Shown one piece after another: positions 4,332 to 22,167 of a stretch of 64,000 bases of DNA. The DNA lies in the NCBI GenBank assembly GCA_035697485.1, contig DASSCU010000063.1, positions 1 to 64,000 of the forward strand. The letters are read 5' to 3'. A program made the position numbers and the translations under genes. Numbering within the stretch: position 1 is the stretch's first letter; each line of letters begins with the position of its first letter. Under the pieces are notes generated by a model. That model was not told the origin of the DNA, searched no databases, and saw only the letters and a program-made list of their open reading frames with translations. Origin of the DNA: Actinomycetota bacterium. GTDB lineage: Bacteria > Actinomycetota > UBA4738 > HRBIN12.

Positions 4332-4697
4332 GTGGGAACCGTGCTGGTGGTGGTCATCGCCGTGGCCGTCGGCGTGCTCGTCTACCGGCTGACCGCCGGC
4401 GACACCGAACCGACGAGCTCGGCCGAGCCTCCCCTCCCCGGAACGGACGACGAGATCGGCGCGTGGTCGAGCGGCGAAGGGGGCGTCACGCGCTCAGCGC
4501 TGGCTCCGACCGAGCGGCGGACCGAGGTGCCGGAGGGGTACATCCCGGTCGCGTCGGGCGCGCCGTCGTGGCATGCCCGGCTCGGCGGTGCGATGGGCCT
4601 CGTGATCGCGGTCGCGATCGGCGCGATCGCGCTGGCGCTCTCGTTGTGGGCGCTGGCGTCGTTCGTCTCCCGGCTCTTCTCCGACGCAGGCGCTTGA
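4332..4697 (+). CDS. small two-pass membrane protein, unknown
   Basis: A 121-residue protein that I do not recognise. It has an N-terminal membrane segment (VLVVVIAVAVGVLVYRL, residues 4-20), a polar middle of about 65 residues and a second membrane segment near the C-terminus (GLVIAVAIGAIALALSLWAL), so both hydrophobic ends flank a soluble loop. The GTG at 4332 has a strong AGGAGG eight bases upstream, and a TACGCT -10-like hexamer lies at 4300-4305. It is divergent from the PDZ protease and converges on the mreB-like gene. Its function cannot be inferred. Confidence 0.7.
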   Translation: MGTVLVVVIAVAVGVLVYRLTAGDTEPTSSAEPPLPGTDDEIGAWSSGEGGVTRSALAPTERRTEVPEGYIPVASGAPSWHARLGGAMGLVIAVAIGAIALALSLWALASFVSRLFSDAGA

Positions 4698-4715
4698 CGC
4701 CCGGCCGCCACGGCG

Positions 4716-5723
4716 TCACCGACGGCGGACGAGCTGGAACGCCGACCGGTAATCCTCGAGGTGCTCGAGCATGCGACCCGTGCCGACGACCACCGTCTCG
4801 AGCGGCCGTTCCACGACGTGAACGGGCACCTCGCACTCCTGGGCCAGCAACATGTCGAAGCCCCGCAGCAGCGCTCCCCCGCCGGTGAGGAACATGCCCG
4901 TCTCGAGCACGTCATGCGTGAGCTCGGGCGGCGCCTCGGCGAGCGTGAGGCGGGTGGCCTCGACGATGCCGTGCACCGGCTCGCCGATCGCCTTGCGGAT
5001 CTCGTCCTCGGTGACCTTCACCTCGACGGTGTTCCCGGTGGCGAGCTCGCGTCCGATCACGACGGCGGCCTTGCTGCCCGGCGTCGGGAAGGCCGATCCG
5101 ATCGCGACCTTGATCTCCTCGGCGGCCTTCTCCCCGATCGCGACGCCGTACTCGGTGCGGATGTGTTGCTGAACGGCGCCGTCGAGATCGAACCCGCCGA
5201 GCGCGGCCGAGCGGCCGCTCACGACGCCCCCCATCGACACGACCGCCATCTCCGAGCGGCCGCCGCCGATGTCGACGACGAGGTGTCCCACCGGCTCGTG
5301 CACGGGCAGCCCGGCGCCGATCGCGGCGGCGAGTGGTTCCTCGACCAATGTCACCTGGCGCACCCCCGCCGACCGGATCGCGTCCTCGATCGCACGGCGC
5401 TCGACCTCCGAGCTCATCGACGGCACGGCCACCAGGACCCGGGGACGCGGGAAGCGCACGGTCATCGTGCGGCGGATCACGACCTCGATCATGGCCTGCG
5501 TCACGTCGAATTCGGTCATCGTGCCCTGCTTGAGCGGTCGCACCGCGAGCACGTTGCCAGCGTCGTTGCCGAGCAGCTGCCATGCTTCCTCACCCATGGC
5601 GAGCACCTCGCCGGTGTCCGCCCGCACGGCGACGACGGCGGGCTCATCGAACACCACACCTTCGCCCTGTCGGTAGACGAGGGTGTTCGCGGTCCCGAGG
5701 TCGATCGCGAGATCGCGGCCCAT
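4716..5723 (-). CDS. mreB: MreB-like actin-fold protein
   Basis: A 335-residue bacterial actin homologue that would form membrane-associated filaments guiding lateral wall synthesis. The phosphate-1 loop (DLGTANTLVY), the LVEEPLAAAIGAG segment and the adenosine loop (LTGGGALLRGFD) are typical. The phosphate-2 loop reads DIGGGRSEMAV, where MreB normally has DIGGGTT; the first Thr is Arg, which could alter ATP contacts. No mreC, mreD, pbp2 or rodA lies beside it, as they would in a standard mre operon. The downstream and upstream neighbours are a small membrane protein and moaE. It could be a second MreB/Mbl-type paralogue. Confidence 0.9.
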   Translation of the reverse strand: MGRDLAIDLGTANTLVYRQGEGVVFDEPAVVAVRADTGEVLAMGEEAWQLLGNDAGNVLAVRPLKQGTMTEFDVTQAMIEVVIRRTMTVRFPRPRVLVAVPSMSSEVERRAIEDAIRSAGVRQVTLVEEPLAAAIGAGLPVHEPVGHLVVDIGGGRSEMAVVSMGGVVSGRSAALGGFDLDGAVQQHIRTEYGVAIGEKAAEEIKVAIGSAFPTPGSKAAVVIGRELATGNTVEVKVTEDEIRKAIGEPVHGIVEATRLTLAEAPPELTHDVLETGMFLTGGGALLRGFDMLLAQECEVPVHVVERPLETVVVGTGRMLEHLEDYRSAFQLVRRR

Positions 5724-5758
5724 CGCTATCGAGGAGTCCTGAGAGAGAAGGCCGCCAT

Positions 5759-6211
5759 CTAGCTGCCCATCACCCAGTGGGCCTCGCCTGAGACGAGGCC
5801 TTCCTTCTTCCAGATGGGCACGTCCTCCTTGAGCCGCTCGATGCCGTGGCGACAGGCCTCGAACGCCTCGGCGCGGTGGGGCGCCGAGACGGCGACGATC
5901 ACGCTCGTCTCGCCGACCTCGAGCGAGCCGACGCGGTGCACGATCGCGACGCGGCGAGCCGGCCAGCGCTCCAGGATCTCACCGGCGAGCTCATGGAGCC
6001 GCTGCTCCGCGAGCTCGTGCCAGGCCTCGTAGGTGAGGCCGGTGACGCCTCCGGCGTCGGAATGATCGCGCACCGTGCCGGTGAAGATGCACACCGCGCC
6101 GGCGGCCGGGTCGGCAACGGCCGCCGCCGCCTCGTCGAGCGAGAGCGGCGCATCCTGCACGCGCGTCAGGACGCTCGCGTCGGGGTCGGAGCCGGTTCGC
6201 AGGTCGGACAC
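5759..6211 (-). CDS. moaE: molybdopterin synthase catalytic subunit
   Basis: MoaE, 150 residues, the large subunit that inserts dithiolene sulfur into cyclic pyranopterin using thiocarboxylated MoaD. The signature stretches are FTGTVRDH, TYEAW, HRVGSLEVGE, SVIVAVSAPHRAEAF and the lysine-bearing VPIWKKE near the C-terminus. The start is GTG at 6211, preceded by TACGAT with exactly 6 nt between, which suggests a leaderless transcript. No other molybdenum-cofactor gene is visible nearby, so the partner MoaD must be encoded elsewhere. Confidence 0.93.
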   Translation of the reverse strand: MSDLRTGSDPDASVLTRVQDAPLSLDEAAAAVADPAAGAVCIFTGTVRDHSDAGGVTGLTYEAWHELAEQRLHELAGEILERWPARRVAIVHRVGSLEVGETSVIVAVSAPHRAEAFEACRHGIERLKEDVPIWKKEGLVSGEAHWVMGS

Positions 6212-6217
6212 GCGGCC

Positions 6218-6223
6218 ATCGTA
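6218..6223 (-). promoter_or_regulatory. TACGAT -10 element of moaE (leaderless)
   Basis: On the minus strand TACGAT is followed by ggccgc and then the GTG start of moaE. The spacing puts the expected transcription start at the first base of the codon. There is no Shine-Dalgarno sequence. Confidence 0.5.
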
Positions 6224-6249
6224 ACCAAGGCCGAAGGACCGAGGGGTCG

Positions 6250-6255
6250 TACGAT
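6250..6255 (+). promoter_or_regulatory. TACGAT -10 element of the DUF2342 gene (leaderless)
   Basis: TACGAT is followed by 6 nt (gagacg) and the ATG at 6262. It is the same hexamer and spacing as for the divergent moaE and for the VOC gene at 9272. No ribosome-binding site is present. Confidence 0.5.
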
Positions 6256-6261
6256 GAGACG

Positions 6262-7446
6262 ATGAGCGATCAAGGAAGCAGCGGGTTCGGGTTCCCGTTC
6301 GGCATGGATCCGGAGTCGTTGCGCGACGCGCCGCTGTTCCGCGAGATGCAGCGGGTGATGTCGTCGTCGTCGGGACCCGTGAACTGGGAGCTCGCGCGGC
6401 AGGTCGCGGTCGCGAGCGCCGCCGAAGCAGGCGACGACCACGACGCCACCGACGAGGAGCGCCATGGCTTCGAGGAAGCCGTGCGAGTCGCCGAGCTGCA
6501 CGTCGCGCGGTTCACGGGTCTCGACCCGCCGATCGACGTGGCCGACGTGCGCGCGGTGCGCCGCGCGGAGTGGATCGGGGCGAACGCCGAGAACCTCGCC
6601 GGCCTGCTGGAGCCGGCCGCCAGGCGCATCGGCGAGTCGATGGATCTCGCGCAGCATGGGTCCATGCCGCCCGAGATGCAGGCGATGAGCGGCATGCTCG
6701 CCCAGATCTCGCCGCTGCTGATGGGCGCGCAGGTCGGGCAGGTGCTCGGGTTTCTCGCGCAGCGGGTGCTCGGCCAGTACGACGTGGCGGTGCCACGATC
6801 GGGACCGGGCGCGGTGATGTTCGTGGTGCCGAACGTGCGCCGGTTCGAGACGGATTGGTCGCTCGACCCGACCGACTTCCGCACGTTCGTGGCACTGCAC
6901 GAGGTGACGCACCGGTTCGAGTTCGCCCAGCCGTGGGCGCGCACCCGGTTCGCTGAGCTGCTCGACGACTTCCTGTCGACGCTGCGGTTCGACATGGAAG
7001 GCCTGCGGTCGCGGTTGGCGACGATCGACGCGAGCGACCCCGAGACGCTGCAGCAGATGCTCCAGAGCGACGAGGGTCTCTTCGGCGCCGAGCTCGACGA
7101 CGAGCAGCGGCTGAAGCTGGGCAGGATCCAGGCGTTCATGTCGGCGGCCGAGGGCTACGGCGACCACGTGATGCACACGCTCGGCGCCGAGCTGCTGCCC
7201 TCGTACGGCCGGATCGAGGAGGCGATGCGCCGCTACCGAGAGGGCGAGGCCGGCGATCCGGTGTTCGAGCGGCTCCTCGGCGTGGAGATGAAGCGCGAGC
7301 AGTACGAGGCCGGACGGGCATTCTGCGACACGGTGGTCTCACTCACCGACGAGGCGACGTTGTCGCGGATGTGGGAGAGCCCCGACGCGATGCCGTCGCT
7401 GCCGGAGGTGGCCGAGCCGCGGTTGTGGCTCGCCCGCACGGTCTGA
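6262..7446 (+). CDS. DUF2342 zinc-metalloprotease-like, F420-associated family
   Basis: A 394-residue member of the actinobacterial DUF2342 family (named coenzyme F420 biosynthesis-associated or zinc-dependent metalloprotease in databases). The HEVTH motif in ALHEVTHRFEF (about residues 212-222) is a zincin-type HExxH and would supply two zinc ligands and the catalytic Glu. There is no signal peptide, so it should be cytoplasmic. The N-terminus (MSDQGSSGFGFPFGMDPESL) resembles that of other family members. The biochemical role is not established, and the F420 link comes only from phyletic co-occurrence of the family. It stands alone with its own leaderless-type promoter. Confidence 0.85.
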   Translation: MSDQGSSGFGFPFGMDPESLRDAPLFREMQRVMSSSSGPVNWELARQVAVASAAEAGDDHDATDEERHGFEEAVRVAELHVARFTGLDPPIDVADVRAVRRAEWIGANAENLAGLLEPAARRIGESMDLAQHGSMPPEMQAMSGMLAQISPLLMGAQVGQVLGFLAQRVLGQYDVAVPRSGPGAVMFVVPNVRRFETDWSLDPTDFRTFVALHEVTHRFEFAQPWARTRFAELLDDFLSTLRFDMEGLRSRLATIDASDPETLQQMLQSDEGLFGAELDDEQRLKLGRIQAFMSAAEGYGDHVMHTLGAELLPSYGRIEEAMRRYREGEAGDPVFERLLGVEMKREQYEAGRAFCDTVVSLTDEATLSRMWESPDAMPSLPEVAEPRLWLARTV

Positions 7447-9751: not shown

Positions 9752-9779
9752 CTCAACACTTCGGGCATGTCGGGTGTTC
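9752..9779 (+). promoter_or_regulatory. ECF-type promoter motif, copy A (upstream of the sigma gene)
   Basis: CTCAAC (9752-9757), a 12-nt spacer, then TCGGGTGTTC (9770-9779). Three more copies with an 11-nt spacer precede other units of this block at 11621, 15389 and 21134. Its position directly in front of the sigma-factor gene suggests autoregulation. Confidence 0.6.
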
Positions 9780-9789
9780 TCCCCTTCGG

Positions 9790-10326
9790 ATGCCTGAAAC
9801 GCTCAGGCTCGTGGTCTCACGCGGTCTCGCCACGGACGAGGCCGTGAGCGACGCGCAGAGCTTCGAGGAGTTCTTCGAGATCGAGAGCCCGACGATGTTC
9901 CGGCGGCTGTGCCTCGTCACGGGGAACCGCCACGAGGCCGAAGAGGTCATGCAGGATGCGTTCCTCAAGGTGTTCGAGCGCTGGGACCGAGTTCGGCTGA
10001 TGGAGGATCCGACCGGATACCTGTATCGAACGGCCTTCAACCTCTTCAACCGGCGAACGAAGCGCGCGGCGATGGCCCTGCGTCGGGCATTCAGCGTGCG
10101 CGAGAGCGTGGACCAGTTCGCGGCCGCGGACGCCAGATTCATGGTGGAGCAGGGGCTGTCCGAGCTCACCTCTCGACAGCGCGCGGCGATCGTGCTCACC
10201 GAACTGCTCGGCTACAGCTCCGAGGCGGCCGGGCGCGTGCTCGGCGTTCGGCCGGGAACGATCCGGGCCCTCGCATCGCAGGGCCGAGCGGCCATGAAGC
10301 GAACCCTGGAGCCGGAAGATGTCTGA
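9790..10326 (+). CDS. ECF-type RNA polymerase sigma factor
   Basis: About 178 residues. Region 2 is seen as FFEIESPTMFRRL, HEAEEVMQDAFLKVFERW and DPTGYLYRTAFNLFNRRTKR. Region 4 is LSELTSRQRAAIVLTELLGYSSEAAGRVLG with the helix-turn-helix ending GTIRALASQGRAAMKR. The frame is open further upstream, but that part overlaps the promoter motif at 9752-9779; ATG 9790 is the first start after it and GTG 9844 is an alternative. It overlaps the next gene by 8 nt, the usual sigma/anti-sigma coupling. It likely drives the four motif-bearing promoters in this block. Confidence 0.85.
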   Translation: MPETLRLVVSRGLATDEAVSDAQSFEEFFEIESPTMFRRLCLVTGNRHEAEEVMQDAFLKVFERWDRVRLMEDPTGYLYRTAFNLFNRRTKRAAMALRRAFSVRESVDQFAAADARFMVEQGLSELTSRQRAAIVLTELLGYSSEAAGRVLGVRPGTIRALASQGRAAMKRTLEPEDV

Positions 10327-10915
10327 CATCGGCCCGGACCTCGAGCGCACGAGCCGGCGGTTCGAGCTCGCGCCAGGGGCCTTGGACCGGTTGTTCGAAC
10401 GTCACCGGCGGAAGCAGCGCAACCGGAAGATCGGCGCCGGGCTCCTGGCCTTCGCGATCGCGGGGGCCGGCACGTGGGGAGTCGTCACGACGCTGCGAGA
10501 GTCAGGCGGTGGACGGCAGCCGGCCGCCTCGCCGCCGCCCGCCAGCGCCGACGCGGATTCGTACGGACTGATCGCCGGCGTCTACGCGACCACGCTTGGG
10601 GAGAACGATCCGGTCGTCGCGGCCAACGGGATGGCGGGAACGTACACGATGCGGCTCAAGCCCAACGGCGTCATGCACCTGAGGTTGCCCCCCGGCTTCC
10701 AGCGGGAGGGGGAGGCGCCCACCGGGATCAACTTCAGGCTCTCGGGCAACCAGTTCACCACCAACGCGTTCGTGAACCTCACATGCGCCGACATCGAGCC
10801 CGGCGTGTACCGCTGGGAGCTGACCAGGTACCGGCTCACGCTCACACCGCTCGTCGACGAGTGCGAGGTCCGTGCGGCGCTCTTCGGATCTCAGCCGTGG
10901 AGGCGCGGACCTTGA
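10319..10915 (+). CDS. membrane-anchored anti-sigma candidate with beta-rich ectodomain
   Basis: 198 residues. A cytoplasmic segment of about 40 residues (GALDRLFERHRRKQRNRK) is followed by one membrane segment (IGAGLLAFAIAGAGTWGVV, about 42-60), a Pro/Ala linker and a beta-rich extracytoplasmic domain of about 125 residues. That domain has repeated strands (GTYTMRLKPNGVMHL, INFRLSGNQFTTNAF, GVYRWELTRYRLTLTPLVD) and ends SQPWRR, which looks lipocalin-like. No zinc-binding HxxxCxxC anti-sigma motif is present. The anti-sigma role is inferred from the 8-nt overlap with the sigma gene and the topology, and is not proven. Confidence 0.65.
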   Translation: MSDIGPDLERTSRRFELAPGALDRLFERHRRKQRNRKIGAGLLAFAIAGAGTWGVVTTLRESGGGRQPAASPPPASADADSYGLIAGVYATTLGENDPVVAANGMAGTYTMRLKPNGVMHLRLPPGFQREGEAPTGINFRLSGNQFTTNAFVNLTCADIEPGVYRWELTRYRLTLTPLVDECEVRAALFGSQPWRRGP

Positions 10916-11595
10916 CCGGCTCGACGCTCCGTCGTCTCCGCACCTTCGTCCTGATGATGGTCGTGGTGCTCTCCGCGTGTACCGACGGCGGTGCCGCTTC
11001 CACAGGGCGCGCACCCGGGCAAGTCGGTTCGTCGCCAGCACGGAGCCAGACGCCATCCCGGGCGTCCCCTGACCCGCTCGAGGGCGAGTGGCGCCAGACC
11101 TACACGTGCGAGGACAACGTCCGAACGTTCATCACGAACATGCACGTGATATCCCCGAGGACGCGCAGAGCGATGGCCGAGACGACCGGACTGAGCACAG
11201 CGCGGCCCGATCTGATCGCCTACTACATCCGCGACTTCGCGTGGGGCCCGAGCGCAGGGACCGCCACACGACTCACCCCTCAGGCGCTCTGCGCAGGCGC
11301 CGGGGACAGGACCGAGATCATGCGCGTCGCCAATGGACAGATGACCTTCAGCTCGCCAGGTGGCGGGACGTGGCTGGTCACCTACGAGCTGATAGGCGAT
11401 CACATGCTCACCATGAACGACGGCGGCCAGGACATCGCCGTCTGCGAGAGCTTCCTGCGGTGCACCGAGGCCACATACAGGTTCACGTTCGAGATCGCCG
11501 GCAACCGGCTCTGGTTCGAGCAGTTGGGAAGGAAGCATCAGGACCCCTGGGCTGGGGGTGTTCCTGAACGAGCTCCGTACGTTCGAGTGGCGTGA
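10912..11595 (+). CDS. DPLEGEW-family lipoprotein 1
   Basis: 227 residues and a TTG start: GGAGG lies 7 nt before it, and the TTG overlaps the TGA of the previous gene (TTGA). The signal peptide ends in the lipobox LSAC with Cys 23. A Ser/Ala/Pro linker leads to DPLEGEWRQTYTC at about residues 54-66 and a beta-rich region (TWLVTYELIGDHMLTMNDG, YRFTFEIAGNRLWFEQLG). The motif is shared with the products at 13244, 17654 and 18375. It belongs to no family I can name; the strand pattern resembles small lipocalin-like barrels. It is probably exported and lipid-anchored. Confidence 0.75.
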   Translation: MTGSTLRRLRTFVLMMVVVLSACTDGGAASTGRAPGQVGSSPARSQTPSRASPDPLEGEWRQTYTCEDNVRTFITNMHVISPRTRRAMAETTGLSTARPDLIAYYIRDFAWGPSAGTATRLTPQALCAGAGDRTEIMRVANGQMTFSSPGGGTWLVTYELIGDHMLTMNDGGQDIAVCESFLRCTEATYRFTFEIAGNRLWFEQLGRKHQDPWAGGVPERAPYVRVA

Positions 11596-11620
11596 ATCAT
11601 TGGCGCTGAGCACCGAACGA

Positions 11621-11647
11621 CTCAACGTTCCGCGGACTCGCGTCTTC
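11621..11647 (+). promoter_or_regulatory. ECF-type promoter motif, copy B
   Basis: CTCAAC (11621-11626), an 11-nt spacer, then TCGCGTCTTC (11638-11647), 41 nt before the ATG at 11689. The spacer starts GTTCCG, as in copies C and D. Confidence 0.65.
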
Positions 11648-11688
11648 ATCCTAGATGTGAGCACTCCGGAAATGGACGGGATGACGGG

Positions 11689-13239
11689 ATGAAGTCTCTC
11701 GAGCGATGGATTGTCGTCGCGGCGGCAAGTCTGCTCGCCGTCTCGTGTACGGCAGGCGGTGCCGCGGATGAGGCATCGGATGGCGACGCCGTGAGGAAGG
11801 CGTTCAGCCCGACCCTGGACTGGTCGGCTTGCCCCGATGACGTGGAAACCCAATTCATCGAGAAGCACAAGTGCGGGTTCCTCACCGTGCCCCAAGACCG
11901 ATCGGACCCGCAGGGCGGGAGGGTCGGCATGTTCGTGGTGAAGGTCTTCCCCGAGGACGCGAGGCCGTCGCCCGATCCGATCCTGGTCTTCGGGAGCGAT
12001 CTCGGCCGCCCCGACGGGTTCTCGGGTCTCGCGCCGCTTGCCAGCCGGACACACCGGATCGCCTACCTGGTGGAGGTGCGCGGCGTCGGCCATTCCGAGC
12101 CGTCGCTGGAGTGCCCGGAGGTGACAGCGCTGGAAGGCGGCGAGAGGACAACGAGCCCCCACTCGCTCACCGGGGAGTTCGTCGTGGCCGTCCAGGCGTG
12201 CCGTGATCGCCTCGCATCCGACGGGGTGGACGTCAGCGACTTCGGCGTGCAGGCCGTCGCTCAGGATGCCGAGGACCTGCGCGTGGCTCTTGGCGTCCCG
12301 CAGTGGAACCTCGCGAGCTACGGGACGACGTCACGCTACCTGCTCGAATACCTGAGAGAGTTCCAGCCGCACGTTCGAGCGGCCTTCATGGACTCGCCGC
12401 AGTTCCCCCAGATCGACGAGGTCAGCGGCGTTGTCACAGGGACACGCTCCGCGCTGAAGAGCCTGTACGCAGCGTGCGAGACAGATGTACGGTGCGAGAA
12501 GGCCTACCCCGACCTGGCAGCCTCGGGGTCCGAAGCCCTCGCACAGCTCGAGCGCACCTCCCTTCAGCGCCGGATCACGTCGCACGACGGCGAACGAACC
12601 GAGGTCACGGTGGATGCAGCCATGTTCCTCCGCGTTGCGGGTTTCGTTCTGGGTGGCGTCCATCCGGACGCAGCCGGGTCACTGCCAGATATGGTCGCAT
12701 CGGCGGCCGCGGGACGCATGACCCCCCGGTTGGCGGCCATCGTCGCCTCGGGGCCCTTGCTGTGCGCCGGCTACCGCCCGCGATGTGAGCCCGACGAGTC
12801 ATTCAGCCTGGGCGCGTATCTCACGGTCCTGTGCCATGACCAGGCGCCGTTGGTGGATCACGCCGCGCTCGAGGCCGAGACGGCCGGCGACCCAGCCATC
12901 GCGCAAGTGATCGGGCAGCATCCCTACCTCGCGGCCTGCGAGGGCTGGAACGTGTCGCCCGCCGACCCCGCCGTACACGAACCCGTGCTGACCGACGTGC
13001 CGCTCCTGATCCTGGTCGGTCGGTTCGACCCGTTCAGCCCGCCGTCCGTGGCCCGAGCTGCCGCCGAGTCGTTCGAGCAGGCGCGGGTGATCGCAGTCAC
13101 CGACGTTCACAACACCCTGGGCCATAACGAATGCGCTCTCGAGATACGCAACGCGTGGATCGATGAACCGACATCCGCACCAACCGCCGCGAGCTGCCTC
13201 AGGGACATGCAGATCCCGTTCCACATCCAGGAGGTGTGA
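11689..13239 (+). CDS. lipoprotein alpha/beta hydrolase, TAP-like (catalytic triad intact)
   Basis: 516 residues of the tripeptidyl-aminopeptidase-like branch of alpha/beta hydrolases. The signal peptide ends AVSC (lipobox Cys 20). The N-terminal CGFLTVPQDR stretch is typical of the branch. The nucleophile elbow is NLASYGT with Ser 210; the acid is Asp 447 in GRFDPFSPP and the histidine is His 479 in LGHNEC. The usual LDQRGTG loop reads VEVRGVG. It is the only one of the three paralogues here that keeps the serine. It heads a unit of hydrolase, lipoprotein and hydrolase behind promoter copy B. The substrate is unknown; the location should be the outer face of the membrane. Confidence 0.8.
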   Translation: MKSLERWIVVAAASLLAVSCTAGGAADEASDGDAVRKAFSPTLDWSACPDDVETQFIEKHKCGFLTVPQDRSDPQGGRVGMFVVKVFPEDARPSPDPILVFGSDLGRPDGFSGLAPLASRTHRIAYLVEVRGVGHSEPSLECPEVTALEGGERTTSPHSLTGEFVVAVQACRDRLASDGVDVSDFGVQAVAQDAEDLRVALGVPQWNLASYGTTSRYLLEYLREFQPHVRAAFMDSPQFPQIDEVSGVVTGTRSALKSLYAACETDVRCEKAYPDLAASGSEALAQLERTSLQRRITSHDGERTEVTVDAAMFLRVAGFVLGGVHPDAAGSLPDMVASAAAGRMTPRLAAIVASGPLLCAGYRPRCEPDESFSLGAYLTVLCHDQAPLVDHAALEAETAGDPAIAQVIGQHPYLAACEGWNVSPADPAVHEPVLTDVPLLILVGRFDPFSPPSVARAAAESFEQARVIAVTDVHNTLGHNECALEIRNAWIDEPTSAPTAASCLRDMQIPFHIQEV

Positions 13240-13243
13240 CGCC

Positions 13244-13816
13244 ATGAAACGAACCATCGCGATACTCGGAGCGATGACGCTGCTGCTGGCGGCATGCAGC
13301 TCCGGTGATACGGCATCGCGCCAAGCGCCTGCCAGCCAGGCGGAGGCATCACCTACTCTGGCTGAGACGATAGGGCTATCAGATCCCCTCGAGGGCGAGT
13401 GGCAAACGCATTTCTCATGCCAGGACATGGTCCGCACGCTCGAGCGAGAGTCAAATCCCAAGCTGTATGACCGGTGGATCGCCGTCCTTGTGCAGGATGT
13501 GTTCAGGCTTCCGGACGAACCGCCGCGCGGGGACCTCTGCGGGAAGGACCGGTCGGTGACGCTGCGACTGCGTTTCGCCAACGGCACGTTCGTCACATGG
13601 AACCCCCAGCATCCCGAGGTGTCGAGTGTTCCGACGTACGAGCTGATCGAAGGCCACGACGCCTTCATCGGTCGCGACGACGGCTCAGGGAACTGGACCG
13701 AGGAGGCGAAGGTCACCTACCGTATCGTGGGCGATCGCCTCACCCTGGATGTCCAGTGGCCCAGCCCCTGGGAAGCCTCAACACTCGAACCCGGCACGTG
13801 GGTTCGCGTGCGTTAA
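13244..13816 (+). CDS. DPLEGEW-family lipoprotein 2
   Basis: 190 residues. The signal peptide MKRTIAILGAMTLLLAAC gives lipobox Cys 18. After a linker comes DPLEGEWQTHFSC (about 47-59), then beta-rich sequence (VTLRLRFANGTFVTW, VPTYELIEGHDAFIG, VTYRIVGDRLTLDV). The ATG follows a GGAGGT site and lies 4 nt after the hydrolase stop. It shares its motif and strand order with the other three lipoproteins of the block. Its function is unknown. Confidence 0.75.
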   Translation: MKRTIAILGAMTLLLAACSSGDTASRQAPASQAEASPTLAETIGLSDPLEGEWQTHFSCQDMVRTLERESNPKLYDRWIAVLVQDVFRLPDEPPRGDLCGKDRSVTLRLRFANGTFVTWNPQHPEVSSVPTYELIEGHDAFIGRDDGSGNWTEEAKVTYRIVGDRLTLDVQWPSPWEASTLEPGTWVRVR

Positions 13817-13822
13817 TGGACG

Positions 13823-15355
13823 ATGAAGTGTCGCGGAATCCGACGCCGACAGATCGGCGTCGTGACCGTCGCCGTCCTGCTCACTGCTTCCTGCACCTCG
13901 ACGGATGCCTCGTTCCGCCCGACGTTCGAGGTCGCCCCCTGTCCGGACGACGTGTCATTGGTCATCCTCAACGATCACTCGTGTGGATACCTGACGGTGC
14001 TCGAGGATCGATCGGAACCCGACGGGCACACGATCCGACTGTTCGTCGTGAGGATCCGGCCACCGGGGAAGGCCTCGCCGGACCCGATGTTTCATCCAGG
14101 CATCGAATTGGCCATGGGCAACGACTATCAGGGGATCGCTCCGCTGGCCCAGCGCACTCACAGAGAGGTGATCATGCTCGATCAGCGAGGCACTGGTCAC
14201 TCGGAGCCGCCACTGGCCTGCCCTGAGGTTCGAGCGATGTCGGAGAAGGTCCTGGGAGCCCGCCTGTCGGACCCCTCTGCCCGGGACGCCCTCACCAGTG
14301 CCGCCGCGGTCTGCCACGACCGGCTGGTGTCCGAAGGCATCGATCCTTCGGCCTACACGCTGGAAGCCGCGGCTGCCGATGCCGAGGATCTTCGGAGGGC
14401 GCTCAGCATCGAACGTTGGAACATCCATGTGATCGGCACCGCTTCGCGGATCACTATGGAGATGATCCGACGTTTCCCCGAGCACATCCGGTCTGTGCAA
14501 CTCGACTCGCCGCAGTTCCCCCAGCTCGAGGGCCTGACCGAGGCACCGCGGGATCTGCGCGACGCTATGGGACAACTCTTCGCCGCGTGCGCGAAGGACG
14601 CGCGCTGCGATCGCGCGTTCCCCGAGCTCGCCACGGCTTTCGTCGAGGTGATCACACAGCTCAACGCCGACCCGGTAACCGTCAGTGTGCGAAGGGGATC
14701 GCATGGGATCGACCTCGACCATCCCGTGAACGTGATCGTCGATGGGGCTGCCTTCGTCCGGGCGATCAGGGTGATGGTGTCCGACGGCGGGCCAGAAGGC
14801 GCCCCATTGGTGCCTCTCACCGTCTCGGCAGCCCACAGAGGTGACCTCCGCCTCGCGGCTCGCTTCCTCGCCCTAGACCCAGGTGGTTGTGTCGGGTACC
14901 TGCCTTTCTGCGAATGGAACGACTACAGCGAGGGCACCTACTACTCTTTCCTCTGCCACGACGAGGTGCCGTTCGTCGACCCGTCGCGCCTCGAGTCGTG
15001 GGCAGCGGGTGATCAAGGGATCGTCGAAGCGTTCGGACGGAGCCCCTATCCGGACATCTGCGAAGTGTGGCCGGTTGGGAAGACCGACGCAGTCGCGAAC
15101 GAGCCAGTCTCGTCGGACATCCCGACCCTGATCTTCCACGGCGCGTTCGACGCGTACAGCCCGGCCTCACTCGTCGAGGAGGCCGAGGCAAGGCTGTCGT
15201 CGGCGTACCTCGTCGAGTTCCCGTACAACGGCCACAACCTCCTAGCGTTCGACTGTCCCCGGAGATTCCGCAATGTGTGGGTCGACGCCCCCACGTTGCC
15301 GCCGGACACAGGCTGCGTAGTGCGGATGCCAGCCCCCCGGTTCGCGCTCCGCTGA
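13823..15355 (+). CDS. lipoprotein alpha/beta hydrolase paralogue lacking the nucleophile
   Basis: 510 residues, clearly related to the products at 11689 and 18933. Lipobox TASC gives Cys 24, followed by CGYLTVLEDRS, LDQRGTGHSEPPLACPE and a C-terminal Asp (GAFDAYSP) and His (YNGHNLLAFDC). Where the active paralogue has Ala-Ser-Tyr-Gly, this one reads His-Val-Ile-Gly, so the nucleophile serine is Val 203. Histidine and aspartate remain. It is therefore probably a non-hydrolytic binding or scaffold protein, unless another residue substitutes. It starts 6 nt after lipoprotein 2. Confidence 0.78.
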   Translation: MKCRGIRRRQIGVVTVAVLLTASCTSTDASFRPTFEVAPCPDDVSLVILNDHSCGYLTVLEDRSEPDGHTIRLFVVRIRPPGKASPDPMFHPGIELAMGNDYQGIAPLAQRTHREVIMLDQRGTGHSEPPLACPEVRAMSEKVLGARLSDPSARDALTSAAAVCHDRLVSEGIDPSAYTLEAAAADAEDLRRALSIERWNIHVIGTASRITMEMIRRFPEHIRSVQLDSPQFPQLEGLTEAPRDLRDAMGQLFAACAKDARCDRAFPELATAFVEVITQLNADPVTVSVRRGSHGIDLDHPVNVIVDGAAFVRAIRVMVSDGGPEGAPLVPLTVSAAHRGDLRLAARFLALDPGGCVGYLPFCEWNDYSEGTYYSFLCHDEVPFVDPSRLESWAAGDQGIVEAFGRSPYPDICEVWPVGKTDAVANEPVSSDIPTLIFHGAFDAYSPASLVEEAEARLSSAYLVEFPYNGHNLLAFDCPRRFRNVWVDAPTLPPDTGCVVRMPAPRFALR

Positions 15356-15388
15356 GCTCGCACCCGCGCCCACATCAGCGCGAAGCAA

Positions 15389-15415
15389 CTCAACGTTCCG
15401 CCGCCTCGAGTGTTC
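15389..15415 (+). promoter_or_regulatory. ECF-type promoter motif, copy C
   Basis: CTCAAC (15389-15394), an 11-nt spacer beginning GTTCCG, then TCGAGTGTTC (15406-15415). It lies 124 nt before the TolB-like gene at 15540. Similarity to copy D continues downstream as TTCA-x-GGTGA. Confidence 0.65.
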
Positions 15416-15539
15416 TTCATGGTGAACAACGAGTTCCGGTTCGAGTCTCGGATCGCAAGCAGCCGTCCGGTTGACCGGACCCAGCAGTGATGAAGGAGGC
15501 GCGTATGCAAGCCCACAGGATCCACAACCGGGAGGGGCG

Positions 15540-16472
15540 ATGAAGCGAACGCCGATGATCCTGACCGCCATGGGATTGATGGGACTGCTCGTGGCGGCCG
15601 CCGGAACGGCCCAAGCCGCGTTCCCGGGGAAGAACGGCCAGATCGCCTTCGACACCGATGGAAGTGGTCACTCCCAGATCTTCACGGTTCGACCCGACGG
15701 CACCGGCGTCCGGCAGCTCACCCACTTCAAGGGTCGACGCTGCGCCTCCCAGCCGAAGTGGTCCGCCGACGGACGCCACATTGTCTTCGCTGTGAAGGAC
15801 ACGACCGGAGAGTTCTGTTCCGAGAACGGCAACGGCCGCATCTGGGTGATGAACGCCGATGGCACCGGACAGCACCGTGTCATGAAGGACCCGGGCTTCG
15901 ACGACACGGCACCCGCTTGGTCGCCTGATGGCGATCACATCGTCTTCTCCCGCTGTGCCAGGCCGTTCGGGTTCGCGACGTACTGCGACATCGCGCGGGT
16001 TGACGCCGACGGCACCGGTCTCACGAAGCTCCTCGGCGGGAACTGGGTCCACAACGGCCCCAGCTACTCTCCGGACGGGCAGCACATCTCCTTCAGCGCC
16101 AACCGAGGCGGGATGGTCACCGCTATCTGGGTGATGGACGCCGACGGAGGCGGGCTGCACCGTCTCACCGAGCCCGCCCTCGAAGCATCGGGGCCGAAAT
16201 GGTCGCCCGACGGTTCCACGATCCTGTTCGACACGATCAAGGGCATCCCGGACGAGATCGTCGACAGCGTCTGGGTCATGACAGCCTCGGGGAGCGACCC
16301 GATGCTGCTTAACGACCATGGCGTGGCAGCCAGCTACTCCCCGAACGGGCGGAGGATCGTGCTCCTCAGCGGTCGACTCTCCGTGATGAACGCCGACGGA
16401 ACCGATCTCCACACCCTCGTAAGGGCGCGTGGCATCTTCTCCTCCGATTGGCAGCCGAGGGTCGCGTCATGA
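15540..16472 (+). CDS. secreted TolB-like PD40 beta-propeller 1
   Basis: 310 residues with a cleavable signal peptide (ends AGTAQAAFPG) and at least five PD40/WD40-like repeats, seen as KWSADG, AWSPDG, SYSPDG, KWSPDG and SYSPNG, each followed by an I-x-F strand and alternating with DADGTG-type turns. Such propellers are extracytoplasmic binding platforms. The ATG has GGAGGGG just upstream. Its 3' end overlaps the next frame (ATGA). It shares the FPGKNGQIAFD-type first strand with the propellers at 16523 and 21256, so all three are paralogues. Confidence 0.82.
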   Translation: MKRTPMILTAMGLMGLLVAAAGTAQAAFPGKNGQIAFDTDGSGHSQIFTVRPDGTGVRQLTHFKGRRCASQPKWSADGRHIVFAVKDTTGEFCSENGNGRIWVMNADGTGQHRVMKDPGFDDTAPAWSPDGDHIVFSRCARPFGFATYCDIARVDADGTGLTKLLGGNWVHNGPSYSPDGQHISFSANRGGMVTAIWVMDADGGGLHRLTEPALEASGPKWSPDGSTILFDTIKGIPDEIVDSVWVMTASGSDPMLLNDHGVAASYSPNGRRIVLLSGRLSVMNADGTDLHTLVRARGIFSSDWQPRVAS

Positions 16473-16522
16473 GCCATCGGGTGGACGTCGCCTCATCGAC
16501 TTCATCAGGAAGGAGATCCTCT

Positions 16523-17599
16523 ATGCGAGCCAAGCGAACGCCCCCCGGTCTCTGGATCGTGATCCTCATAGCGGCCGGCCTGACGTTCGCCTCGGCCGGC
16601 CCCGCCGGAGCGCAGTACCCCGGCACCAACGGCAGGATCGCGTTCGACGATTACATCACCGGACAGATCTACGCGGTGAACCCCGACGGGACGGGGCTCC
16701 GGCAGCTCACGGACGTGGGTGAAGGCGAGTTCGCATCCTCGCCCGCATGGGCTCCCGACGGGAAGCACATCGCCTTCGCGAGCAACATGAGCGGGCGATG
16801 GCGGTTGTGGATCATGGACGACGACGGGCGCCACGTTCGTCGGGTCGCACGTGATGGCCGAGCCGTGGAGGACTTCGCACCGACTTACACGCCGGACGGG
16901 ACTCGCCTGCTCTACACCCGGTGTCGACACGAGCCGAGGCCTGGCTGCGCACTGTTCTCGATCCGAACCGACGGAACCGACAGGCAGGCGCTCACGCCCG
17001 TGCCCTTCGATGCCGCAGACTTCAACCCATCCTTCTCGCCCGACGGCAGCGAGATCGCCTTCACCAGACTCTTCGCGAACGGAATCATCGCCCAGATCCA
17101 CGTGATGTCGCCCGACGGGTCCGGACTCCATGCCGTCACGGCTCCGTCCCTGGAAGCATTTAGGCCGGACTGGTCCCCCGACGGGCAGCGCATCACGTTC
17201 TCCAGCAACTGCTGCCGCCTTCCCAGCAACGTCTACGTCGTGAATCCCGACGGAACGGGCATCCAACGGCTGACCCCGGCGAGCTACCCGAACAACGACT
17301 TCGCGTCCCGATACTCGCCCGACGGTGCGTCGATCGTCTTCGCGAGCGACCGTCGCTACGACGACTTCTGTTGCTCGGACCTCTTTGTGATGGACGCCGA
17401 CGGCAGCGGCGAAACTCGCATCCGGATCCGGAACGTCGGCGTGAACGCCCCGGCGTGGGGCACCGACCCACCGATCGCCGGCGGCGCCCGGCTGGCTGGA
17501 ACGACCACATCCATCTCCGGCAGGGAGGCCGCGACTGCGAAGGCGGCATGGTGCCGGGAACTCCCTGCACTCCTGCCCGAGATCGAGGGGTGCCGCTAG
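16523..17599 (+). CDS. secreted TolB-like PD40 beta-propeller 2
   Basis: 358 residues. The signal peptide MRAKRTPPGLWIVILIAAG ends near AGAQYPG. Repeats are seen as AWAPDG, TYTPDG, SFSPDG, DWSPDG and RYSPDG, with two cysteine-rich turns (SSNCCRLPSN, DDFCCSDLF). An in-frame ATG at 16469 overlaps the previous stop, but 16523 has AAGGAG seven bases upstream and begins at a normal signal-peptide n-region, so it is preferred. The C-terminus carries about 45 extra residues after the propeller. It is in the unit driven from copy C. Confidence 0.8.
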   Translation: MRAKRTPPGLWIVILIAAGLTFASAGPAGAQYPGTNGRIAFDDYITGQIYAVNPDGTGLRQLTDVGEGEFASSPAWAPDGKHIAFASNMSGRWRLWIMDDDGRHVRRVARDGRAVEDFAPTYTPDGTRLLYTRCRHEPRPGCALFSIRTDGTDRQALTPVPFDAADFNPSFSPDGSEIAFTRLFANGIIAQIHVMSPDGSGLHAVTAPSLEAFRPDWSPDGQRITFSSNCCRLPSNVYVVNPDGTGIQRLTPASYPNNDFASRYSPDGASIVFASDRRYDDFCCSDLFVMDADGSGETRIRIRNVGVNAPAWGTDPPIAGGARLAGTTTSISGREAATAKAAWCRELPALLPEIEGCR

Positions 17600-17653
17600 C
17601 GACACCGCCATTCCGCGCGGCACCCATGGACGTGCCTGATCCAGAGGAGGAAG

Positions 17654-18364
17654 ATGCATGACGCTTCACAGCACAGCATCCACAGGTCCGGGATGCCCGC
17701 CAACGGGGTGTCGTTCATGAGACGGCAGGACGTTGATCGCGGATCCGCTCGCACTCCACCGCGTCGATCGAGGTACGCGTCGCGGCGGACCGGTGGAACG
17801 GCGCTCGTCATGTTGGCCGCGATGCTCGCTGGGTGCAGCTCCGACGGAGCAACCGAGCCCGTCACCGAGAGCCGTCCGGCATCGAGCGCGACGCGGGAAG
17901 CTGCACGAGCCGATCCGCTCGAGGGCGAATGGCGCCAGGAGTTCACGTGCGACGATCAGGTGCGCGCGTTCAGGCGGGGGACAAAGGAGCTGGGGGCCGA
18001 AGGGCGCGCCATGTTCGAGGAGTACGTCCGCCCGATGGCCGCGGGGGCGTATTGGTCGGAGGACGCAAAACTTCCCCCGAGGAACGATCTCTGCAAGTAC
18101 GCGCCGGCCAGCTGGGAGCGGATCCTGCGGGTCCAGGACGGGCAGATGGTCTGGTTCGACCCGGGCGGAGTCGTCGGCACAGAAGCCACGTACGAGCTCG
18201 TCGACGATCACACCTTCACCGCGAGTGACGGCGATCAGAACATCGACGGAACGTACACGTTCGAGTTCCGGATCGAAGGCGACCGGCTCACGATCGATCT
18301 GGTCGACCCCGATCCGTTCGTCGGAGCCGCCGTCGGGGTCGCCCCGTTCGAGCGGATGAGTTGA
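17654..18364 (+). CDS. DPLEGEW-family lipoprotein 3
   Basis: 236 residues from ATG 17654 (GAGGAGG three bases upstream) or 215 from ATG 17717. Both precede an arginine-rich stretch and the signal h-region TALVMLAAMLAGC with lipobox LAGC. After a linker comes DPLEGEWRQEFTC, then the beta pattern GTEATYELVDDHTFTASDG and GTYTFEFRIEGDRLTIDLVD. It is the clearest match to lipoprotein 1 in spacing and strand order. The fold looks like a small lipocalin-type barrel (inference). Confidence 0.75.
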   Translation: MHDASQHSIHRSGMPANGVSFMRRQDVDRGSARTPPRRSRYASRRTGGTALVMLAAMLAGCSSDGATEPVTESRPASSATREAARADPLEGEWRQEFTCDDQVRAFRRGTKELGAEGRAMFEEYVRPMAAGAYWSEDAKLPPRNDLCKYAPASWERILRVQDGQMVWFDPGGVVGTEATYELVDDHTFTASDGDQNIDGTYTFEFRIEGDRLTIDLVDPDPFVGAAVGVAPFERMS

Positions 18365-18374
18365 GGGAGGATCG

Positions 18375-18932
18375 ATGACACCGGGAAGGATCGATCGGCG
18401 GCTGGTCGTGTTGACCTTCACCGCTGCTATCTCGACCCTCACGATTGCATGCACCAGCCTGGACGGGGCGAGCGGTCGTCCTGAGGGGTCGATGATGACA
18501 TCGGATGCCGTGTCGACCGAACCGACGGACCCGCTCGAGGGAAACTGGTTCCACGACAAGGTCCCGTGCTCGGTGCGGCGGGAGACCGTAATCGCGGCTG
18601 GGTTCAGCGAAGCCGAATGGATCGCGGCGTTCCCTGATGGCTGTGCGGGCGAGGTAGGGCCATTCGAGCTCCGGTTCCTCGACGGCCGAGTGATCGGGAT
18701 CGGTGATGACGGCACGATCGGCTGGGATTCGAGCTACGAGTTCAAGGACGGCGACACCGTGGTGCTCGATGACGGTTTCGATCACAGTACGATCGACTTC
18801 ACGATCGAGGGCGACACAATGACGATGCACCTCGTCAAGTTGACCGCTCCCACGAGTAAGGGGGAGTTGACCTACGAGCGTGTCTATCTTGTCGCGGCTT
18901 GGATAGCGGGAGCATTCACCAGGATGAGCTAG
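18375..18932 (+). CDS. DPLEGNW-family lipoprotein 4 (divergent)
   Basis: 185 residues; lipobox TIAC gives Cys 26. The family motif is DPLEGNWFHDKVPC, with Glu replaced by Asn. Beta-rich sequence follows (GPFELRFLDGRVIGIGDDG, SSYEFKDGDTVVLDDGF, TIDFTIEGDTMTMHLV). The ATG follows GGGAGG. The stop codon TAG is directly followed by the ATG of the next hydrolase paralogue, the same lipoprotein-then-hydrolase order as at 13244-15355. Confidence 0.75.
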   Translation: MTPGRIDRRLVVLTFTAAISTLTIACTSLDGASGRPEGSMMTSDAVSTEPTDPLEGNWFHDKVPCSVRRETVIAAGFSEAEWIAAFPDGCAGEVGPFELRFLDGRVIGIGDDGTIGWDSSYEFKDGDTVVLDDGFDHSTIDFTIEGDTMTMHLVKLTAPTSKGELTYERVYLVAAWIAGAFTRMS

Positions 18933-20447
18933 ATGGCAACACGGGTGGCGATCGGTCTCATCGTCCTCACCGTTATGGGATTCGCGTCCTGCACCCAGGA
19001 TTCAGCTTTCCGGCCTACCTTCGAACCCGTCGCATGCCCGGAAGACGTGTCCTTCGTGATCCTCACGGAGCATTCGTGCGGGTACCTGACCGTGCTCGAG
19101 GATCGGTCGAAGCCCGAGGGACGCACGATCCGGTTGTTCGTGATCAGGGTCCGTCCCCCGGGCGGGAGCACGACGCCCGACCCGATGCTCCACGGCGGGG
19201 TCGAGCTGGCCACGACCGCCGACTACGGCGGGATCGCGCCGCTCGCGCAGCGAACTCATCGAGAGCTGATCATCCTCGATCAGCGCGGGGCGGCCCACTC
19301 CCAACCGTCGCTCGCCTGTCCTGAGGTTCGTGCCGTGGCCGAACAGCTCATCGGAGCCCCCATGTCGGAACCGTCCGCCCGCGCGGGACTTCGAAGCGCG
19401 GCGAGCGACTGCTACGACAGGCTGGTTCGCGAGGGGATCGATCCGGCCGCGTACACGCTCGAGGCGGCCGCCGCCGACATCGAGGACCTGCGGCGAACGC
19501 TCGGGATCGATCGGTGGAACATCCAGGTGCACGGCACCGCATCGAGGATCGTGCTGGAGTCGATGCGTCGGTTTCCCAAACGCATCCGTTCCGTCGTCCT
19601 GGACACGCCGCAGTTCCCGCAACTCGATGGGCTGACCGCGGCGCCGGACGATCTTCACGACGCCATGCACCGTTTGTCAGCCGTGTGCGCCGAGCAGGTG
19701 CGCTGCCACGAGGCGTTCCCCGAACTCGTGGACGCGTTCGACGAAGCGGCAGCCCGGCTGCAGGGCCACCCGGTGACCGTTCGTGTCGAGAAGGACCGGT
19801 CGGGACTCGACCACCCGGTCGACGTGGTGGTCGACGGCGCCGCGTTCGTCCGTGGCGTGCGGGTCATGCTCTCCGATCAGGATCTCGGTGGCGCGCCGCT
19901 CGTCCCCGCGGCCGTGCACGCAGCCCTCGACGGCGACGTCAGGCTCGTCGCCCGCTTCCTTGCCGAGGACCCTGGCTGGTGTGTGGGCTACCTGCCGAAG
20001 TGTGAGCGGTACGACTTCAGCGAGGGCACGTACTACTCATTCGTCTGCCACGACGAGGTGCCGTTCATCGACGAGGCCCGGCTGGATAAGACGTCGGCCG
20101 GCAACCCGGGCATCGCCGAGGCGTACGGCCGGAGCCCGATGCTCGATGTGTGCGATGTCTGGCCGGTCGGAGCGGCCGACGCCACCGCGCAGCGACCGAT
20201 GTCGTCGGACATCCCGGCCCTCATCCTGTACGGCGCGTTCGACGCGTACAGTCCTCGGGCGCTGGCCGAGACGGGGGCGGGTCTCACATCGGCCTTCCCG
20301 GTGTCGTTCCCGTTCAACGGCCACAACATGCTCGCGTTCGACTGTCCGAGGAGGTTGCGCAACGGTTGGGTGGACGACCCGGCCTCGCCACCGGACACGA
20401 GTTGCATCGACGACGAGATGCCTGCGCCGCATTTCGAAGTGGCCTGA
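18933..20447 (+). CDS. lipoprotein alpha/beta hydrolase paralogue lacking the nucleophile (second)
   Basis: 504 residues, closest to the product at 13823. Lipobox FASC gives Cys 20, followed by CGYLTVLEDRS and LDQRGAAHSQPSLACPE. The elbow reads Gln-Val-His-Gly, so the serine position is Val 199, while Asp (GAFDAYSP) and His (FNGHNMLAFDC) are kept. The oxyanion-loop region also departs from consensus (RGAAHS for RGTGHS). It abuts the preceding lipoprotein gene without a gap, so translation is probably coupled. A degenerate binding role is inferred. Confidence 0.78.
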   Translation: MATRVAIGLIVLTVMGFASCTQDSAFRPTFEPVACPEDVSFVILTEHSCGYLTVLEDRSKPEGRTIRLFVIRVRPPGGSTTPDPMLHGGVELATTADYGGIAPLAQRTHRELIILDQRGAAHSQPSLACPEVRAVAEQLIGAPMSEPSARAGLRSAASDCYDRLVREGIDPAAYTLEAAAADIEDLRRTLGIDRWNIQVHGTASRIVLESMRRFPKRIRSVVLDTPQFPQLDGLTAAPDDLHDAMHRLSAVCAEQVRCHEAFPELVDAFDEAAARLQGHPVTVRVEKDRSGLDHPVDVVVDGAAFVRGVRVMLSDQDLGGAPLVPAAVHAALDGDVRLVARFLAEDPGWCVGYLPKCERYDFSEGTYYSFVCHDEVPFIDEARLDKTSAGNPGIAEAYGRSPMLDVCDVWPVGAADATAQRPMSSDIPALILYGAFDAYSPRALAETGAGLTSAFPVSFPFNGHNMLAFDCPRRLRNGWVDDPASPPDTSCIDDEMPAPHFEVA

Positions 20448-20494
20448 TCTCCGATTGCGCCCGAGGAGCGCTCGAGCGAGCGGTCATGTATCCC

Positions 20495-20866
20495 TCACAG
20501 CTGCGCGAGCAGCTCGAGCGGGAACGGTGACTGCACGATCGGCTTCACGGCGAGTCTCACCAGCAGCAGAGGGTTGTCGTCGCCCGCCGAGCGGTTGAGG
20601 TGCACCACCCCGCACCCGCCGCATCGGTGCACGAGCACCCACTCCCCGTCGCCGCGCACGGTGATCGCGATCGGCTCCATGAGGGAGCCACACGTCGACG
20701 CGCGGTCGCCCGGCGTATGGTCGACATGCCTGCTCCAGAGGCAACTCGGGCAGTGGTTGCGGTGCTCGGTGCCGACCGCCTGGGTCGGCACGTCGGATCG
20801 GCAATGGCCGCACCGGAACGAGCGCTGACGATGGCGCCGCTCGCCGCGCCGTGCATCGTGGGACAT
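20495..20866 (-). CDS. RNHCP-domain zinc-ribbon protein
   Basis: 123 residues. CGHC and HRNHCPSCLWSRHVD form the RNHCP motif that names the family, with GDRASTCGSLMEPIAI and a final HRCGGCG ribbon. It is presumably a zinc-binding cytoplasmic protein; its role is unknown. The ATG at 20866 has a strong GGAGGT site 7 nt upstream. The frame stays open further upstream and there contains CRDCGH, but no start signal supports that longer form. It is on the opposite strand from the surrounding sigma-regulon genes. Confidence 0.85.
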   Translation of the reverse strand: MSHDARRGERRHRQRSFRCGHCRSDVPTQAVGTEHRNHCPSCLWSRHVDHTPGDRASTCGSLMEPIAITVRGDGEWVLVHRCGGCGVVHLNRSAGDDNPLLLVRLAVKPIVQSPFPLELLAQL

Positions 20867-21133
20867 CGGACGGACCTCCAAGCTCGAACGGTGGATGCAC
20901 CGTCGTGCCCGGAGGGCGCGGACGATCAGCGGATGCTGGGACGACCGGCGTCGGGGCACGACGCGGTGACCGCAGTCGCGGCAGACATAGATCGCACCCC
21001 TTCCTCGGTCGGGCCACGGACGACGCCGTGGCGGTGTCCGAACCCTAGCACGTCGGCTCGGCCGGCGGTCGGATCTTCGAGCACGGCGCACGAGGAGTGC
21101 CAACGAGCACTCGACGACGCGATCGCCGGCAGC
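20867..21133. other. intergenic stretch, nothing convincing seen
   Basis: Between the RNHCP gene and promoter copy D. The minus strand is open in the RNHCP frame (including CRDCGH), but it lacks a start signal. It could hold the RNHCP promoter; I see no clear elements. Confidence 0.4.
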
Positions 21134-21160
21134 CTCAACGTTCCGTGGTCTCGCGTGTTC
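21134..21160 (+). promoter_or_regulatory. ECF-type promoter motif, copy D
   Basis: CTCAAC (21134-21139), an 11-nt spacer beginning GTTCCG, then TCGCGTGTTC (21151-21160), 96 nt before the ATG at 21256. It is the copy closest to C. Confidence 0.65.
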
Positions 21161-21255: not shown

Positions 21256-22167
21256 ATGAGGCGACTTATCACACTGCTCACGATCACAGGGATCGCCGCC
21301 TTGGCGATGGTTTCGATCGCCGGGCCGGCAGCGCTGGCCACCATGCCGGGCCAGAACGGTCGGATCGCGTTCTCGCTCGACAGGGGCTCGGGCGGGGAAA
21401 TCTACACCATCAGGGCCGACGGGACCGACCTCCGGCGGCTCACGCACCTCGACGGCAACGCGATCGCACCCGACTGGTCGCCCGACGGCACGAGGATCGT
21501 GTTCTGGCTCGAGGATCAGGCGCTCTACGTCATGAACCGCCACGGTGGCGGCCTGCACGAGGTGACGACCCCTGGTGGCCAGGCTGCGTTCACCCCCGAC
21601 GGGAACCATCTCGTGTACTCGGGCGGGAGGCGTCGCAACGGGATCTTCCTGATGCGCGCCGACGGTTCCGACGCTCCCGGGCGGCGCCTGACGACGAATC
21701 CCCTGCCCGCAGCCGAGGGTGGTGACGCGAACCCGGAGGTCTCACCGGACGGCCGGACCGTGACCTTCCTCCGGGAGAACGGCTTGTTCGCCGTCGATAT
21801 CGACGGCACCGACGTCCGAGAGCTCGTCTCGCCCAACCTCTTGCTGGTCATCAAACACGACTGGGCCCCCGACGGGAGCCGCATCGTGTTCACCTCGCCC
21901 TACGACTACAGCCGGAACCCGAACGTGTTCGCGATCGACCCGGACGGCTCGGATCCGGAGATGCTGACATCGGCGACCGGCAAGCTCGGGGCGTTCGTCG
22001 GAACCTACTCTCCCAACGGACGCAAGATCGTCGTGAGGGTGGAGAACCTGGACCACGAGCGCTTCCGGATCTTCAAGATGCGACCGGACGGCAGTGACCG
22101 AACCTTGATCGCCGCTTTGCCGGCATCGCCCCGGTTCCTCGACTGGGGTTCGCTCGCGGAATCGTGA
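21256..22167 (+). CDS. secreted TolB-like PD40 beta-propeller 3
   Basis: 303 residues; a signal peptide (ends near AALATMPG) is followed by MPGQNGRIAFS, the same opening as its two paralogues. Repeats are seen as DWSPDG, AFTPDG, EVSPDG, DWAPDG and TYSPNG. It has its own promoter (copy D) and forms a single-gene unit. It converges on the amidohydrolase with an 11-nt gap. It is probably extracytoplasmic; the binding partner is unknown. Confidence 0.82.
   Translation: MRRLITLLTITGIAALAMVSIAGPAALATMPGQNGRIAFSLDRGSGGEIYTIRADGTDLRRLTHLDGNAIAPDWSPDGTRIVFWLEDQALYVMNRHGGGLHEVTTPGGQAAFTPDGNHLVYSGGRRRNGIFLMRADGSDAPGRRLTTNPLPAAEGGDANPEVSPDGRTVTFLRENGLFAVDIDGTDVRELVSPNLLLVIKHDWAPDGSRIVFTSPYDYSRNPNVFAIDPDGSDPEMLTSATGKLGAFVGTYSPNGRKIVVRVENLDHERFRIFKMRPDGSDRTLIAALPASPRFLDWGSLAES

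Follow-up and report, generated by a model that had tools for sequence, protein, structure and literature searches.

A block of twelve genes within the 64,000-nucleotide stretch of DNA analysed here (hereafter the window), which comes from an actinobacterium of soil type, most probably represents a complete ECF module, with a membrane-held sigma factor, four promoters and a set of exported ligand binders, a reading to which we assign a probability of nearly four in five. According to the mechanism that we propose, the single-pass membrane protein whose gene immediately follows the sigma gene would hold the sigma factor, a signal perceived at its outer beta-rich domain would free it, and the free sigma factor would transcribe four promoters (-35 CTCAAC, with 16-17 nt from AAC to TSTTC), belonging to its own operon and to three neighbouring units. 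The exported products would then most likely bind or sequester an envelope-directed ligand instead of degrading it. Homology and motif evidence suggest the holding of the sigma factor and the transcription of the four promoters, while the nature of the signal and what the products do, ligand binding included, are suppositions.

Judged from the sequence, this appears to be a genuine ECF regulon, unusually clean in outline, of a circuit type that is already known. The sequence-only reading, which had proposed an undescribed envelope module, is supported overall. Provisionally, no description of the regulon contents or of this ECF group was found in the open-licence literature; the type of circuit is familiar. 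For an uncultured actinobacterial lineage this provides an ECF regulon with sharp boundaries, predicted in full, whose targets can all be named from sequence.

A twelve-gene block headed by an ECF sigma gene

The twelve genes lie on the plus strand in four units. Unit 1 comprises the sigma gene (9790..10326), the gene of the putative anti-sigma factor (10319..10915), which overlaps the sigma stop codon and whose N-terminal stub is conserved behind related sigma genes, and lipA (10912..11595), which in turn overlaps the putative anti-sigma gene and encodes a lipoprotein with a DPLEGEWR domain, identified by its lipobox and by alignment. Unit 2 is hydA-lipB-hydB, encoding a TAP-like alpha/beta-hydrolase lipoprotein that lacks the GxSxG serine (hydA, 11689..13239; PF08386, PF00561), a lipA relative recognised by profile search and alignment (lipB, 13244..13816) and a TAP-like pseudo-hydrolase lipoprotein recognised by domain search, comparison and elbow alignment (hydB, 13823..15355). 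Unit 3, propA-propB-lipC-lipD-hydC, encodes two secreted PD40 beta-propellers (PF07676), the TolB-like propA (15540..16472) and propB with five repeats (16523..17599), two further lipoproteins related to lipA, namely lipC (17654..18364; alignment, start codon uncertain) and lipD (18375..18932; profile search and alignment), and a third TAP-like pseudo-hydrolase lipoprotein, hydC (18933..20447; domain search, Hip1 alignment and elbow alignment). Unit 4 consists of propC (21256..22167), encoding a secreted PD40-type beta-propeller. The PD40 repeats of propA and propB score 68.5 and 92 bits against a cutoff of 20.9, and propC was assigned through a TolB-type propeller model that it matches below cutoff.

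The predicted exported products thus amount to seven lipoproteins (four small, sensor-like ones and the three pseudo-hydrolases) and three beta-propellers. The anti-sigma candidate, lipoproteins, TAP-like hydrolases and propellers are those listed by the sequence-only reading, with two amendments: the TAP-like trio are predicted lipoproteins as well, and the block is interrupted by a minus-strand gene. This gene (about 20495-21000), RNHCP-like by eye with a TEHRNHCPSC motif, lies between the hydC and propC units and outside the regulon. Positions 10891-20447 are slightly lower in G+C (65-67% against about 69%) and in GC3 than the housekeeping genes that flank them, which is compatible with fast evolution and no more than suggestive of horizontal acquisition.

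The 178-aa sigma factor contains PF04542 and PF08281, that is, regions 2 and 4 (sigma2 and sigma4 domains) only, which places it among the ECF (group IV) factors, and it matches the solved SigE, SigW and SigL. Its best NCBIfam model is SigE-fam_strep (TIGR02983; 100.6 bits, E 8e-29), and as this score is below the curated cutoff of 141.55 bits, the protein is formally outside that family. Alignment of the N-terminal codons with those of the orthologue in locus L041 agrees with the start at ATG 9790. Its own genome contains seven ECF genes of this sigma family, and nearly every genome of the order contains one to five; about 45 neighbourhoods of related sigma genes were collected. In the tree, the window sigma factor and the sigma factors of L040 and L041, which represent two further families of the order, form a clade with a support of 98/95.

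Four promoter-like sites and a family-wide element

The motif CTCAACN10-13TCGNGTSTTC has exactly four matches in the window, all on the plus strand and each a short distance ahead of a transcription unit, confirming what the sequence-only reading had reported. Site 1 (9752..9779; CTCAAC as -35, N12, then TCGGGTGTTC as the -10 region) precedes the sigma ATG at 9790, site 2 (11621..11647; CTCAACGTTCCGCGGACTCGCGTCTTC) the hydA ATG at 11689, site 3 (15389..15415; CTCAACGTTCCGCCGCCTCGAGTGTTC) the propA ATG at 15540, and site 4 (21134..21160; CTCAACGTTCCGTGGTCTCGCGTGTTC) the propC ATG at 21256. Since only 10 nt separate the end of site 1 from the sigma ATG, the sigma transcript would have nearly no leader. 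The resemblance among three of the spacers, also pointed out before, extends in copies 2-4 to twelve consecutive common bases, CTCAACGTTCCG, and the spacer of copy 1 is one base longer. The layout is therefore CAAC, N16-17 and TSTTC, with N17 and TGTTC in site 1 (AAC-N17-TGTTC) and N16 in the other three; the -35 AAC is present in all four sites, and the -10 element reads (C/A/G)GTSTTC, with CGT in two of them.

The strict motif was absent from 100 dinucleotide shuffles of the window, and the whole genome assembly (3.41 Mb in 64 contigs, 95.6% complete) contains the same four matches only, all inside the block, with no match to a reversed control pattern. A motif common at unrelated genes was the outcome that, according to the sequence-only reading, would speak against a regulon; with zero or one mismatch nothing was found outside the block, the genome having no one-mismatch site at all. 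Allowing two mismatches gives 14 further genomic sites, one of them within lipB and nearly all inside ORFs, and loosened forms of the motif add three positions (C50:1922, C43:2579 and C56:80910), each inside a long ORF. Because the motif had been defined post hoc, chance was assessed for any 14-position dyad of the same form, and four non-overlapping copies of such a dyad occurred in 2 of 1200 Markov sequences of block size.

An element of comparable architecture is found upstream of related sigma genes across the order. In a trimer-dyad count, AAC-N17/18-GTT precedes 10 of 41 such genes, against 1.4 expected, and an EM bipartite search of 39 sigma-upstream regions converged on AAACGnn, N14, CGTTCATG (equivalent to AAACG-N16-CGTTCATG), with a log-likelihood of 157 compared to 43-62 in four sets of mononucleotide shuffles. 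The family-wide element includes CGTTC. Its CATG could in places be a start codon, which does not apply to L066 and L067, where the ATG meets a stop codon at once. The element lies upstream of some 25 sigma genes (loci L041-L079 and L125), and two near-identical sites outside the training set (L064 and L126) also directly precede their sigma gene. The sigma promoter is the strongest matrix hit in most of the loci scanned; sibling loci mostly have a single strong site, at the sigma gene, where the window has four. Streptomyces sigma-E promoters likewise have spacers of 16-17 bp (PMC6767563). With the family matrix the window sites score just 3.8-6.7, indicating that they have diverged, and we regard the window motif as a diverged variant of the family-wide element with the same spacing. 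The distance from AAC to GT, proposed earlier as ECF-like, agrees with the architecture and spacing of this element, and on the same grounds an autoregulated ECF promoter seems the best reading of the window sites.

Two other origins of the repeated sites have to be weighed. If they were operators of another DNA-binding regulator, with the ECF gene as just one target, the twelve bases common to copies 2-4 would find an explanation, as this is more spacer conservation than a promoter needs. Nevertheless, such operators would have to reproduce the bipartite layout and spacing of an element that precedes many further ECF genes of the order, the block contains no other recognised regulator gene, and a search of the block for sigma-70-type promoters found none, so that we consider this origin improbable. 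Even less probable in our judgment is that the repeats are by-products of a recent segmental duplication of leader regions, with no common regulon. Duplication did contribute to the block, as indicated by the 66% identity between hydB and hydC and by the paralogous lipoproteins and propellers, yet similarity around the sites stops at the motif boundaries, copy 1 keeps both boxes despite its differing spacer, the first genes behind the sites (sigma, hydrolase, propeller) are not homologous, and most of the paralogues have no such site in front of them. The autoregulated ECF promoter therefore remains our preferred reading of the four sites.

The putative anti-sigma factor and the exported proteins

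The single-pass membrane protein encoded downstream of the sigma factor is a candidate anti-sigma factor, composed of a basic cytoplasmic stub of about 40 aa, one transmembrane helix and a small beta-rich outer domain; the AlphaFold model of this protein was too poor to be of use. Most of the related sigma genes are likewise followed by a gene for a single-pass protein, in which the stub is conserved (MSDxxxxLERESxRFxLxPG...RRRRKxRNRRI) and the outer domain changes, being a PD40 propeller in L043 and L047, YCF48/BNR in L042, DUF6923 in L040 and L051, and a small beta-rich domain in the window, L041 and L118. Searches of the stub against Pfam and NCBIfam gave no match to a known anti-sigma family, and the zinc motif is absent. 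Class I anti-sigma domains have 50 aa or more and carry an Hx3Cx2C zinc motif in about half of the cases (PMC7406223), whereas the window stub has about 40 aa before the transmembrane helix, lacks this motif and matches neither database. An ECF family whose putative anti-sigma factor keeps one short stub while swapping outer domains makes sensor evolution directly testable.

An HMM built from the small lipoproteins finds the outer domain of the L041 anti-sigma factor (E 1.9e-4 among 6039 ORFs), and a profile comparison with the anti-sigma pair from the window and L041 gives a probability of 91%, on shallow alignments; together these give moderate support to a remote relationship between the lipoprotein domain and the outer domain of the putative anti-sigma factor. 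The AlphaFold model of lipC (pLDDT 73) shows a strand, two helices and then a beta-meander, the order of elements seen in calycins. The predicted topology is therefore like that of fatty-acid-binding proteins and lipocalins, but without a significant structural match, since the best PDB hit was potempin E (E 0.017), with fatty-acid-binding proteins at 0.04 and above.

Hip1/CaeA of M. tuberculosis, a TAP-like serine protease of the same fold family, can be aligned with hydA and hydC over their N-terminal halves (E 3e-6 and 2e-9). However, where Hip1 has the elbow GYSYGTR, the window proteins have SYGTTSR (hydA), VIGTASR and VHGTASR, and hydA, hydB, hydC and the homologues in L041, L118 and L119 carry glycine where the serine would be, followed three residues later by a conserved SR. 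The GxSxG serine is kept in Hip1 and in a relative from another actinobacterium (G193; GISYGT). The plain reading of this substitution, which upholds the description of the three proteins as pseudo-hydrolases in the sequence-only reading, is that serine hydrolase activity by the usual mechanism has probably been lost; a shifted nucleophile is conceivable. All three proteins have lipoboxes (LLAVSC, LLTASC and FASC). Tandem TAP-like hydrolases with about 30% identity to hydC occur in two other loci, L150 and L151, from 9-10 Mb genomes of the phylum, the GISYGT elbow having been read in the G193 copy (L150), and no related ECF gene was found near these relatives.

The combination of presumably dead hydrolases, small lipoproteins and propellers in one regulon suggests a binding-based envelope response. 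It is possible, though we think it rather unlikely, that these proteins act as co-sensors of the anti-sigma factor and not as effector output, which would be compatible with the promoter reading of the four sites; the fusion of a propeller to the anti-sigma stub in sibling modules of the order and the relationship of the lipoprotein domain to the outer domain would fit such a role, but ten exported products are many for one sensor. Somewhat more speculatively, the sensor domain of the anti-sigma factor may have been copied into its own regulon, in which case the lipoproteins would be tethered relatives of the sensor whose induction supplies competing ligand binders and hence negative feedback, with the pseudo-hydrolases and propellers as further binders and the sibling stub with interchangeable propellers as a plug-in receptor design. 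As the output of the module, binding or sequestration of the ligand by the exported proteins is still the role that we favour.

Orthologous modules and known ECF systems

In two further families of the order, orthologous sigma genes also have genes for propellers, hydrolases or lipoproteins as neighbours. L041 contains the sigma and anti-sigma genes, a hydA homologue and a divergent propeller gene; in L040 the sigma and anti-sigma genes are accompanied by a divergent gene for a hydrolase, judged by eye to be of the active type (GASFGG), and by genes for a lipoprotein and a PD40 protein. Neither module has the strict motif and no target promoters were identified in them, so either promoter and sigma factor have co-diverged or the targets differ. 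The self-contained sigma regulon put forward by the sequence-only reading is thus established, by sequence, in a single genome only, as its strict motif is not conserved in the orthologous modules. A scan of genome contigs for relatives yielded two useful ones. A loosened form of the motif has 0-4 scattered matches in each related genome, and in none of these genomes do they form the cluster; a pairwise search for a motif common to the promoters of sigma and neighbouring genes within other loci was dominated by noise, and a matrix derived from the four sites of the window gave no convincing site there.

Three candidates were set aside. The best outside hit of the window-site matrix (L043:3936) does not precede a gene on its own strand. 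A minus-strand site in L040 (5249; CTACACACTTCGAGTGCCCTGGGGATTCTTC), located ahead of the divergent unit of hydrolase, lipoprotein and propeller genes, looks by eye like window site 1 and has the same spacing, and was not counted given its unexceptional scores of 7.9-8.0. A GCAACC...GTAGC element seen by eye in the sigma and lipoprotein promoters of L118 was not confirmed. L118 itself contains a parallel module (3813-6687) encoding a lipoprotein, a more distant ECF sigma factor, a similar membrane protein and a TAP-like pseudo-hydrolase, whose last gene is frame-broken in the assembly, the contig ending there.

The hallmarks of ECF systems include AAC (-35) and CGT (-10) boxes, a cognate anti-sigma gene and autoregulation (PMC8103513). 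The window system resembles SigW/RsiW and the M. tuberculosis pair SigK/RskA in its two-domain sigma factor, the overlapping downstream gene for a membrane protein, the AAC-type -35 box and a site suggestive of autoregulation, and differs from them in an anti-sigma stub outside the described families, a -10 element of GTSTTC in place of CGT(C/T), and targets that are all adjacent. An association of ECF signalling with WD40-like propellers is also known from the ECF57 sigma factors, which have C-terminal WD40-like repeats (PMC8999054); ECF57 factors carry the propeller as a fused part of the sigma factor, whereas the window encodes it as a secreted protein of its own and the sibling modules have it fused to the anti-sigma stub.
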